From Pseudomonadota bacterium (lineage in GTDB: Bacteria; Desulfobacterota; Desulfobulbia; Desulfobulbales; CALZHT01): a stretch of 43,841 bases of DNA. The notes under the pieces were generated by a model that was not told the DNA's origin, made no database searches, and saw nothing but the letters and a program-made list of their open reading frames with translations. Positions 7,499 to 14,443 of this stretch are shown piece after piece. The position numbers and the translations under genes were made by a program. Within the stretch, counting starts at the first letter, position 1. Each line of letters starts with the position of its first letter. The stretch is from assembly GCA_018823135.1 (NCBI GenBank), contig JAHJJF010000081.1, positions 1-43,841 on the forward strand, given 5' to 3'.

Positions 7499-8679
7499 TT
7501 TTTACCTCCTCTTTAGGGATTAATTCTGCGTTCTGCTGCATCGAAAACTGGGAATAGATTGTTTTTTTACGGCAAATAATGTTTTACGTGTGCCGTCAGG
7601 GTGAGCAGGAAGACTGCCGGCACCATTACCCGTTGATGTTTTTTCTTTCATCCATTGCGTGGAGAGATCAGATTCTGCTTTTTCTGATGCTGGATTTAAT
7701 ACCAGAAGTTGAAGCGATACTTCATTCGGGTTTTGCTACAATATCGGGGAGATATACAGATAGAAACTGGGACCAAATTACGCAATTCTGAATGGGATGA
7801 CTTTGTCTGCTGCCGGGCTTTTCCTGCTAAAAAAGCGCGGCAGCAGACAAGGCATATCTGCCGGCCACCACCATCTATGACATGAAAAGAGGCTCTGAAA
7901 AACGGCTAGATAAAAAATAATGTTCTGATGTCTTGGCCGGTATATTTTCCCCGGCTTGACATTCTCTTTGATATGCTTCGGGATAGGCTTGAGTTTTTTA
8001 CCCAGCAAATTTGGGGCACCTCTTATCAGATATTATCTGATTGATGAGGGTGTCTGTTTTTCGTGGGGAACCTGAGCCCATACCGTTTGAAATCACCGGC
8101 CAGCCGTAAACCTGCAACAACGGAATTGCGCCTCTTCAGATCAAGTGTATTGATTTGTTAGTGGTTTTTCAATCGATTATTTCGGATTCCAGGTTTTAGC
8201 CCGCATTTCTCACAAATCGAAACAGTTGCTAGTCAGCAGGGCAGGGAGTTTGGCAATATGTGAATATGCCAAATCATTGATTTGTGCAACCATCCCTGAA
8301 AATTGTGGCGGGATAAGTGAGGGTTTTCCATCATATCAAACAGGAAGAATCCACAGAAGTTGTTTTCTGGCCCATCGTCAATGCAAGTGGACGTTAGACT
8401 CTATTGGATTCGAATGTCAAACTTGACAATTAGTTGCATTCCAGGCTAACACTCTCATCTGCCATTGACCTGCATCCTTGACGGGAAGGAATTCTTTGTT
8501 GAGTTATTACAAATTGTTTTCGAGGATTATGCAATGTTATGCATCAATCACCAAAAACAATATGGCCGACCTGCGGCGTCCGCATGAACGCTCACGGATT
8601 GAGGATTGAGGAAGGGGTGCGCCTCCCAGCCTGATTTAAGCGCGGCAAAAGCACGACCTTACGGACGGAAACAAATAGC
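7499..8679. other. 1.2-kb stretch with no convincing gene
   Basis: Several short open frames occur on both strands, but none has a good ribosome-binding site, recognisable motifs or protein-like composition. The only clear feature is the 17-bp sequence at 8197-8213 that recurs inverted at 13060-13076. Together with the repeats nearby, the stretch looks like decayed or recombined DNA. Confidence 0.6.
8197..8213 (+). repeat. Left copy of a 17-bp inverted repeat bounding the katG segment
   Basis: TAGCCCGCATTTCTCAC here is found as its exact reverse complement at 13060-13076. Both copies point inward, the arrangement of terminal inverted repeats. No transposase lies between them. Confidence 0.65.
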
Positions 8680-9894
8680 ATGGACGGAAGACGATTCATA
8701 GTGGCGGGAAGCCTGATCGACGGCAGCGGCGCCGAGGCGCGCCGGAATGTCTTTCTGGCGGTGCAGAGCGGCATTATCACCGCCATTGGCTCCGCAGCAG
8801 ACCTGCCTTGCCCCAACGGCACGGCAGTGGATGATTTTTCGCACTGTACCATTGTGCCGGCGCTGGTGGACTGCAGCGTTTCCCTGGCGCGCTCTCCCTC
8901 GGTGGACGCGCAGGTGCGCCTGGCCGCCGAAGAGGCCGGCATTGCGCAAAAGGCCGCCCTGCTGGAGCGGCATATCAGTTACTGCCATATGCACGGGGTG
9001 TTGGGGGTGGCTGAATGCGAAGATATATCCGACGTGCTGGAACATTACCAGAGGGAGAGGGCGTCGGGGGGCATGATTGACATCCGCACCCCCGCTGCTT
9101 TCAGTGGGACCGGGGATGATTGTGCCGCTGGCATTCCGGCAGGAGGCGATTATCTGAAGATCCATTATTCCCCTGATATTGATAATGAGGACGCCGCCCC
9201 GGTTCGCCTCACCCTTGAAAACCTGCGCGGCATTCTGCAGCACAGGGGCCAGAGAAAGGCGGTGGTGGTGGCCAATGGCCGGCAACCGGTGGAAGAGGCC
9301 CTTGTGGCGGGCTGCGATGCCATTGAACAGGGATACGGCATGGGCGAAGCCAATCTCCGGGAAATGGCCTCCCGTGGTGTGTTGTGGATACCCGGCGTCC
9401 TGCGGGCCAGGAATGCATTGTTAAGTGCAGGCTCCGGCGGCAGCGTCTGCTGCCGTTTTTCCCTGCGTTATGTGGCGCCGGGAAAGGCGGACCCCGGGGC
9501 CGAGGCGTTCTGGAAAAAGGCCCTTGCCGGGCAACTGGCGCAACTGCGTCTGGCCAGGAAATTGGGAGTGAAAACGCTTATCGGGTCCGGGGCCGGAAGT
9601 GTCGGCATCCTCCATGGCGAATCCATGGTGGAGGAGATGAAATTGTTTATCAAGGCCGGTTATCCACTGGCGGAGGCAATGTGCTGCGCATCGGAGAATG
9701 GCGTCAGGTTTTTCGGGATGGAGAAACTGGGAGTCCTCAAGAAGGGGCGGGCGGCGACATTCCTGATCACCAGGGGATCGGTGCAGCAGCTGCCAAGGAA
9801 ACTCGCCTATCTGGAGGGTATCTATGTGGACGGCGCACCCAACATGGCATACAGCAAAAATCCTGTCAAGGCGCCGCAATCGGTGCGGCATTGA
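8680..9894 (+). CDS. Amidohydrolase-fold protein lacking the usual metal ligands
   Basis: A 404-residue protein with the overall layout of imidazolonepropionase-like amidohydrolases: an N-terminal beta sandwich with IVAGSLIDGSG, the strand leading into PALVD (60-64), and the C-terminal LGVLKKGRAATFLI. The metal ligands are replaced: HxH after PxLxD is S66/S68; the histidine normally in VxxHA is N199 in VVVANG; the histidine of IEHG is Q217 in IEQG; and the aspartate of GxDAG is G304 in GSGAG. K160 is kept. It is therefore probably a non-catalytic or repurposed member. By eye its GC is higher than the flanking genes. It is convergent with katG across a strong terminator. The ATG at 8680 has only a weak ribosome-binding site. 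Confidence 0.8.
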   Translation: MDGRRFIVAGSLIDGSGAEARRNVFLAVQSGIITAIGSAADLPCPNGTAVDDFSHCTIVPALVDCSVSLARSPSVDAQVRLAAEEAGIAQKAALLERHISYCHMHGVLGVAECEDISDVLEHYQRERASGGMIDIRTPAAFSGTGDDCAAGIPAGGDYLKIHYSPDIDNEDAAPVRLTLENLRGILQHRGQRKAVVVANGRQPVEEALVAGCDAIEQGYGMGEANLREMASRGVLWIPGVLRARNALLSAGSGGSVCCRFSLRYVAPGKADPGAEAFWKKALAGQLAQLRLARKLGVKTLIGSGAGSVGILHGESMVEEMKLFIKAGYPLAEAMCCASENGVRFFGMEKLGVLKKGRAATFLITRGSVQQLPRKLAYLEGIYVDGAPNMAYSKNPVKAPQSVRH

Positions 9895-9904
9895 GTAAAA
9901 TCAA

Positions 9905-9955
9905 GGGGTGGGATTGTTATCCTTACCTGACTGCCAAGGATAAGAATCCCGCCCC
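9905..9955. terminator. Strong bidirectional terminator between the amidohydrolase-like gene and katG
   Basis: Arms at 9905-9924 and 9936-9955 form a 20-bp stem around an 11-base loop: GGGGTGGGATTGTTATCCTT pairs with AAGGATAAGAATCCCGCCCC, with only minor mismatch. It sits 10 bp after the plus-strand stop and about 70 bp after the katG stop on the other strand, so it can serve both convergent genes. Confidence 0.8.
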
Positions 9956-13059: not shown

Positions 13060-13076
13060 GTGAGAAATGCGGGCTA
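13060..13076 (-). repeat. Right copy of the 17-bp inverted repeat
   Basis: Exact reverse complement of 8197-8213. Its outer edge contains the TAG stop codon of the adjacent lipid kinase gene, so the boundary lies at the very end of that gene. Confidence 0.65.
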
Positions 13077-14015
13077 CTCCACCAGGCTCTGAAAACAAAT
13101 AATTTGCACGGCGCCTGGACAGATTGAAAGCGAAGCCGGGGTTTTTCCGAACAGGTCGCCGTCCACCTCCACGATGACTGGCGGGTTGCTGTGCACCTCG
13201 ACAGTTTTTTCTGTGAAATACGAAACCCCAGGCTCCCTGATGTGCGCCCCTGAAGCAATGCGCGGAAATAACCTGGTGATGATTTTCAGCCTCGACAGAG
13301 ACGGCACCACCGTGATATTCAGCTGGCCGTCATCGGTGATGGCCCCCGGCGACATCCGCATGCTGCCGCCGGACACCCATTCGGCATTGCCGGCAATAAC
13401 CATATAGATGCGTTCATCAAATTTCCGGTTTCCGGTGCGGATGGTCATGTGTGGCGCCCGGTAGACGAAAATCTGCAGGAATGTGGTCAGGAAGTAGGCT
13501 CCTTTCGGGCCGAGTAACCGCTTCATCCAGGGCCTCATCATGGAATTCGCAGAAAAACCGACGCAACCGAAGAGGAACCCGTAGCCGTGTCTCTGCACTC
13601 CGTCATGGCTGGAATCGATTCTCACCAGATCGAAAGACCTGGCATGTCCGACCTGCAGGGCAGCCACTGCATCCTTAACAGAGAAGATGCCGATTTCGCG
13701 GCCGATATCGTTTCCTGTGCCGCAAGGAATTAAAGCCACCCTGGGCTTCATGCCCTGCCGGTCCATGATCCCGGATATCACTTCTCTCGCCGTTCCGTCT
13801 CCACCCACGGCGGCAATTATGTCGCAGCCGTTGCGGGCTGCGGCAATCTCCCGGGCATGTCCTGGTTTTTCTGTAATAATTATCTGATCAGGATTGATGG
13901 GCGCGGGCCATATTGCCCTGAAGCTTTCCCAGGTTTTGGCTCCGGACCCACCTTGCGCAGCAGGATTAACGATGTAGAGGACATTATCCATTTTTCTTTT
14001 CACATTTGTATTCAT
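13074..14015 (-). CDS. Diacylglycerol kinase family lipid kinase (YegS/DgkB-like)
   Basis: About 313 residues from the ATG at 14015. The DAGK catalytic domain opens with LYIVNPAAQGGSG, has the nucleotide-binding signature VGGDGTAREV (GGDGT at about 71-75) and PCGTGNDIGREIG, and the beta-sandwich C-terminal half ends VEVDGDLFG, where the VDGE-like motif lies. It would phosphorylate diacylglycerol or a related lipid with ATP at the membrane. The start is uncertain: the open frame extends 26 codons upstream, and another ATG lies 8 codons inside; none has a strong ribosome-binding site. The stop lies in the 17-bp repeat that bounds the katG segment. Confidence 0.85.
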   Translation of the reverse strand: MNTNVKRKMDNVLYIVNPAAQGGSGAKTWESFRAIWPAPINPDQIIITEKPGHAREIAAARNGCDIIAAVGGDGTAREVISGIMDRQGMKPRVALIPCGTGNDIGREIGIFSVKDAVAALQVGHARSFDLVRIDSSHDGVQRHGYGFLFGCVGFSANSMMRPWMKRLLGPKGAYFLTTFLQIFVYRAPHMTIRTGNRKFDERIYMVIAGNAEWVSGGSMRMSPGAITDDGQLNITVVPSLSRLKIITRLFPRIASGAHIREPGVSYFTEKTVEVHSNPPVIVEVDGDLFGKTPASLSICPGAVQIICFQSLVE

Positions 14016-14443
14016 ACTTAAGAAGCCAGGAGGAAGGTGTCTGAATCCGGAATGGGAACAAACTTCAAAAAGAGATTGAATGCATTTCCGCATACTGCAT
14101 TCTGACTGCTGACTACTGATACCCCGTGGCTCGGAGTCCTTGTTTTCCTGCCGCGGGGCAGTTCATTTTTTCACTTTGTATCTTTGCAGCTCTGTGCCTC
14201 AAGCTCTGGGCTTTTCAGTTGACCCTGCTCCTCTAAGACACTCCGGTGTTCATCGACTAGATAAAAGGATGGATGAAGATCGGAAATCAGCAATAAAAAC
14301 GAATAAAATTATTTGGTTGTCAGGATATTGCCCATTTGTCCGGCCTGACCCTGATCCCCTTTTCATGATTTATTTTTATGCCCCTTGGGCCACCCCAACG
14401 TCCCCTTGGGCCCGTCCCCTTGGGCCACGTCCCTTGGGCCGCA
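14016..14443. other. Intergenic region with no gene, containing a short repeat array
   Basis: No open frame here has a ribosome-binding site or recognisable product. The distal part carries the CCCTTGGGCC array (14382-14440) and a 16-base match to the start of the window at 14343-14358. Confidence 0.6.
14382..14440 (+). repeat. Four copies of CCCTTGGGCC
   Basis: Exact 10-base copies at 14382-14391, 14403-14412, 14417-14426 and 14431-14440, with steps of 21, 14 and 14 bases. They end four bases before the 3' end of the histidine kinase gene (14444), so they lie just downstream of it. Confidence 0.8.

Follow-up and report, generated by a model that had tools for sequence, protein, structure and literature searches.

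A Desulfobulbales clade of amidohydrolase-fold proteins with replaced metal ligands, and its apparent spread as a single gene

The window analysed here is the whole 43,841-nucleotide stretch of contig JAHJJF010000081.1 (assembly GCA_018823135.1), within which the gene of interest lies between a diverged upstream leader and a downstream hairpin (Table 1). As the sequence-only reading of this DNA had stated, the frame is intact (8680-9894 on the forward strand, 404 aa) and the fold is that of an amidohydrolase, since the protein scored 33.3 bits against Pfam Amidohydro_1 (PF01979), above the gathering cut-off of 25, and its AlphaFold2 model (mean pLDDT 82.4, pTM 0.85) was matched best in the PDB by 2qs8 (Z 37.7, 366 residues aligned, rmsd 3.3). 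The top PDB chains for the model were the metal-dependent peptidases 2qs8, 3mtw and 3be7 (Z 37-38). This Xaa-Pro dipeptidase and arginine carboxypeptidase group supplied the closest solved fold as well as the top NCBIfam model (NF051886, Xaa-Pro dipeptidase), the latter at 47.7 bits against an equivalog cut-off of 500, but identity was 15-19% and the clade described below lacks the metal ligands. Imidazolonepropionase HutI, the comparison suggested by the sequence-only reading, shares superfamily and fold with the clade (2bb0, Z 31.8) but is not the nearest group to the window protein, which reached 12.9 bits against TIGR01224, where the equivalog cut-off is 298. The window genes tested around it (rhodanese, peroxidase and diacylglycerol-kinase-like) belong to ordinary chromosomal families and say nothing of its function. 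In the portions of the literature available to our search, we found no description of the gene or its clade.

Table 1. Positions of the gene, its flanking features and its diagnostic codons in the window
Feature	Position	Strand	Basis
Outer leader part, probably displaced, GTCAAACTTGACAA...GGCTAACACTC...CCATTGA	8416..8469	+	By-eye likeness to other leaders
Conserved 5' leader, present as a diverged remnant, AGCACGACC box ahead of the ribosome-binding site	8598..8679	+	Element HMM match 8598-9887; leader alignment
Pseudoenzyme gene, amidohydrolase fold	8680..9894	+	ORF; PF01979; AlphaFold2 model; 2qs8 match
Codons 66-68, SxS replacing HxH	8875..8883	+	S66 in 79/79 of clade; H in 6/6 sisters; HxH in 11/11 relatives outside the order
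Codon 160, Lys retained (presumed bridging-lysine column)	9157..9159	+	K 65/79 and R 14/79 in clade; K in 6/6 sisters
Codons 197-199 (VAN), His lost at 197, N199 common to intact sisters	9268..9276	+	Alignments
Codon 217, Gln replacing His	9328..9330	+	Q 79/79; H in 6/6 sisters
Codons 257-277, clade-specific insertion CRFSxRYxxPGK	9448..9510	+	Invariant residues in 79/79; gap in 6/6 sisters; mostly disordered in model
Codon 304, Gly replacing Asp	9589..9591	+	G 79/79; D in 6/6 sisters
Strong hairpin behind the gene, in place of the conserved 3' tail	9905..9955	+	-33.5 kcal/mol, z -5.9

Homologues were gathered as 79 loci from genome contigs together with 58 relative genomes (match in 39 of the 58), and 85 distinct full-length sequences were aligned once exact duplicates, and matches that covered no more than about 330 residues of the query, had been removed. 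The alignment held 79 members of a clade with lost ligands, the window included, and six sisters with ligands intact at ~35-39% identity to the window protein. By the organism names of the retrieved records, clade members are Desulfobulbales, and many sulfur-cycle bacteria carry the gene intact at unrelated genomic sites. Where a catalytic metallo-amidohydrolase has HxH, two further histidines and an aspartate, the window protein has SxS, V197, Q217 and G304. Its S66, S68, Q217 and G304 align with H, H, H and D of intact relatives, residues carried by all six sisters, which bears out the earlier assignments of the HxH pair, of Q217 and of the aspartate. With the window counted, all 79 distinct clade members share S66, Q217 and G304, which excludes chance substitution, whilst position 68 is S in 67 of the 79 and A, F, T, C or, in one case, H in the rest. 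The sequence-only reading had named N199 as the remaining lost histidine; this part fails, as N199 is conserved in both groups (78 of 78 readable clade members, six of six sisters) and the sister histidine falls instead on V197 of the window protein. Its broader claim, that all ligand positions are lost, stands in that every His/Asp column is changed, with one residue misassigned. Loss of all His/Asp ligands as a conserved trait of the clade is therefore supported by the alignment. Position 160, which we take to be the bridging-lysine column of this amidohydrolase subgroup, is mostly retained (Table 1).

Pairwise Nei-Gojobori dN/dS across 27 genomes had a median of 0.257 within groups (48 pairs; the family f12 genera g14 and g48 were each treated as a separate group) and 0.265 between groups (303 pairs), and a median of 0.31 against the codon consensus. 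The gene is thus under purifying selection, weaker than that on recA (dN/dS 0.03 and 0.08). Shared substitutions among orthologues and a dN/dS well below 1 had been proposed as the checks for a conserved pseudoenzyme family; both were run, and the lost sites shared by 79 of 79 members together with dN/dS of ~0.26 support such a family. Taken alone, the intact frame had been a weak argument, as selection cannot be read from a single copy, but the earlier conclusion that the gene is no product of random decay holds for the clade. Broken copies are present in some genomes and, at dS 0.53 from the consensus, the window copy ranks with the more divergent ones, features that a lone decaying copy, a pseudogene still open by chance, would display; set against these, 79 distinct full-length members with the same substitutions and dN/dS of about 0.26-0.31 refute this reading for the clade and leave it with next to no credence.

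Clade members also carry a 21-residue insertion (CRFSxRYxxPGK) that is absent from the intact relatives examined, with C258, R259, F260, S261, R263 and Y264 invariant in all 79 and a gap in all six sisters. Most of its length is predicted to be disordered (pLDDT <50 at 250-257 and 259-272). The intact sisters (L104-L109, L237-L250, L258-L268), from the same phylum, resemble the clade in architecture and in the HGES..EE and QLPRKLSYLE regions, but differ in lacking the insertion, in having HxH, VHANG, EHG and GTDAG intact (CxH in L249) and, for three of the first six (L104, L107, L108), in sharing neighbour clusters. Ligands were kept in 12 of 13 newly added sister-type rows, the exception being L249, as well as in all 11 relatives that a search of the phylum found beyond the order, HxH included. 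L249 itself (G173:C147:123000-124781) is a sister-type amidohydrolase in which CxH stands for HxH and the remaining ligands are intact. The predicted model of an intact sister, built from four sequences, was poor (pLDDT 61) and was left out of the analysis.

One further sequence, L236 (G167:C248:20614-22338), is 44% identical and has SxS, VANG, EQG, GTAAG and Arg at 160, without the CRFSxRY insertion. In a tree built without the ligand and insertion columns, it joined the lost-ligand clade with support of 100/99, the clade alone receiving 99/98. With L236 combining ligand loss and absence of the insertion, a single loss of the ligands probably preceded gain of the insertion, and L236 may represent an evolutionary intermediate.

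Nearly or fully invariant positions in the clade include C65, H98, C212, C258, H312, E314, E318 and E319, and the barrel is under strong constraint along its whole length. Together with K160, these residues leave room for other chemistry or an alternative metal site, and count against a purely non-catalytic protein. The protein could accordingly still be an enzyme, of metal-independent or re-sited chemistry (involving, for example, C65, H98, K160 or the CRFSxRY loop), as the near-invariance of C65, H98, C258, R259, H312 and E314, the mostly kept K160 and the constrained barrel would allow; however, every His/Asp ligand column changed at once, H312 and E314 also occur in intact relatives and so are not new, and the loop is predicted to be disordered, making continued catalysis unlikely. 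The explanation we favour, with moderate confidence, is a ligand- or partner-binding pseudoenzyme without metal ligands that is kept by its hosts and whose gene spread, on its own, in the distant past. Such a protein, lacking the His/Asp ligands, would not hydrolyse; its barrel, along with the HGE...EE and LPRKL regions common to intact relatives, would have been kept in a new role as a binder of either a small ligand or a protein partner, for which the loop, disordered in the model, is a candidate contact site, and a conditional benefit to hosts would make copies persist.

Amidohydrolase pseudoenzymes are a small known kind, of which the collapsin response mediator proteins (CRMPs) are an example. 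CRMPs are human and animal neuronal proteins related to dihydropyrimidinase that have the amidohydrolase fold, have lost most metal ligands and lack dihydropyrimidinase activity (PMC4051505). They are a precedent for this fold without enzyme activity (PMC4051505). CRMP-4 retains two of six metal residues and its bridging Lys has become Leu, whereas the clade has mostly kept the lysine (PMC4051505). Unlike the CRMPs, the clade gene has also spread horizontally. The clade offers a well-sampled bacterial amidohydrolase pseudoenzyme with a probable order of events, ligand loss before insertion, and a possible living intermediate alongside intact sisters of the same phylum makes the route from enzyme to non-enzyme testable.

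Horizontal spread, unexpected and not noted in the sequence-only reading, emerged from comparison with recA as a control in these 27 genomes, which belong to the order and are largely metagenome bins. The recA tree recovered every family (seven label changes, the minimum), whilst the pseudoenzyme gene tree needed ten and left families unrecovered. The gene tree was star-like, with inner branches making up 11% of tree length compared to 29% for recA in the same genomes, and 9% across 41 gene copies (40 named-contig loci and the window). Between groups, pS averaged 0.72 in recA and 0.41 in the gene, whose value was the lower one in 303 of 303 pairs, and in the G063/G256 pair nucleotide identity was 67% for recA and 89% for the gene. 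With flanks totalling ~2.6 kb, a neighbour was shared by 0 of 264 cross-family pairs for the gene and 247 of 264 for recA, and by 11 of 87 and 87 of 87 same-family pairs, respectively, a contrast that is exaggerated because recA, the sole control, is codon-biased and has a conserved neighbourhood. The YegS-like kinase (window 13074-14090) was unusable as a control, with matches in 4 of the 27 genomes. Vertical inheritance under unusual constraint at synonymous sites would account for a locus that can be common within a genus and for the 11 same-family pairs that share a neighbour, but is very unlikely given the unrecovered families, a gene tree nearly devoid of inner branch length and codon-position differences that resemble ordinary coding constraint.

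The highest cross-family nucleotide identity of the gene among the 27 genomes was 88.7%, so the spread looks old, as in a past burst followed by mostly vertical descent. Copies inside one genome (82.9, 77.6 and 70.7% nucleotide identity) are as different as copies from different families, which speaks for separate acquisitions. Approximately 130 bp upstream and ~80 bp downstream are common to copies at unrelated loci. These comparisons show horizontal spread through the order as a one-gene unit, leader and ~80-bp tail attached. In the favoured pseudoenzyme explanation, the His/Asp ligands were lost across the whole clade, probably once and first, the CRFSxRY loop was fixed, and the gene spread singly with its leader and tail, the copies examined having stayed under purifying selection thereafter. 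The star-like spread of a neighbourless gene over an order raises the questions of what moved it and how it benefits its hosts. At least one contig is present in two bins: L221 (G231:C204) and L234 (G220:C55) agree at 99.87% over 2.3 kb although their bins belong to different genera, which is probably metagenome-bin contamination. Carriage by plasmids, phages or viruses was rejected, as the plasmid and phage collections gave no match to the gene and the viral contigs no relative.

Leader similarity starts at points that differ from copy to copy, and between-genus similarity stops shortly past a common 3' point, just after the tail motif. Across 257 genomes of the order, this motif had ten matches, distributed over 9 genomes, and the reversed control had no match. 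Nine of the ten lie immediately behind a copy, either full or 5'-truncated, and the other (G232:C71) is a tail only. A manual count away from contig ends gave 11 events with orphan 3' ends and two with orphan 5' ends (two-sided binomial p ~0.02, calculated by hand), the 3' query being somewhat more sensitive than the 5' query (108 and 88 of 257 genomes). This count excludes copies at contig ends (G045, G235, G217, G170, G089, G256:C50), copies in which both ends are present (G017:C81, for example), the G231:C204/G220:C55 pair, which is a single contig placed in two bins, and G032:C100:28491, which falls short of the 3' end. G044, G229 and G230, being 94-95% identical over 2.5 kb, enter as one event. 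The excess of orphan 3' ends would fit copying that starts at the 3' end, as could simple decay, local duplication (G147) or binning errors. In the G147 case (L229, G147:C141), the 3' half of the gene and ~200 bp of flank are duplicated over 800 bp at 92.5% identity, ~4.5 kb apart; a gene for a repetitive protein lies between the duplicated stretches.

These ends raise a further reading, in which the gene is the sole gene of a mobile element (leader, ORF and ~80-bp tail) whose protein may aid movement. The common 3' point, the tail motifs behind full or truncated copies, the 11 to 2 asymmetry and the star-like tree would all be expected of such an element, but the divergence of copies within a genome gives no sign of recent transposition, and truncated copies may reflect ordinary decay or duplication with flank, as in G147. 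Terminal inverted repeats were not found, the top match lying away from the ends and being equalled in 26 of 1000 shuffles. Among the 25 commonest of the 108 Pfam families matched by the 117 nearest neighbours, there was no transposase or shared mobility gene, and each family was matched by two clade members or fewer, with no neighbour conserved. We consider this reading improbable. A bolder version, slightly less probable again, would see a new kind of mobile unit with fixed leader and tail that once swept the whole order, its 5'-truncated copies with a common 3' end fitting retro-like or rolling-circle copying from that end, and its ligand-less barrel and CRFSxRY loop serving movement or host benefit. 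An empty-site comparison in genus g31 gave a tRNA-Val gene as the shared flank, unrelated far sides and exact ends that could not be read.

Other explanations of the flanks were tried. REP/RAYT flanks were rejected, the tail motif being no genome-wide repeat, and a structured RNA leader was rejected after RNAalifold gave no pair on 19 leaders; nothing of note was found in Rfam near the window gene (best E 0.52). A defence system was likewise rejected, PADLOC giving no match for the two members searched. In the REP/RAYT comparison, GTCCCC/GGGGAC words occurred six times within 150 bp behind 56 copies (2.4 expected) and twice within 300 bp before copies (4.8 expected).

The window copy is itself diverged at both ends: visual comparison suggests that part of its leader is displaced, and a strong hairpin takes the place of its tail. 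A consensus scan of 8416..8469 gave no sigma-70 match, and the copy lacks the conserved 3' tail, the element HMM match ending at 9887. The hairpin at 9905-9955 stands between the pseudoenzyme gene and the peroxidase-family gene. Two observations were made at other loci: L042:3990-4180 belongs to a family of short dispersed repeats that has many matches in each of several g31 genomes, and L044:311-505 is a cobalamin riboswitch (RF00174, 102.7 bits).
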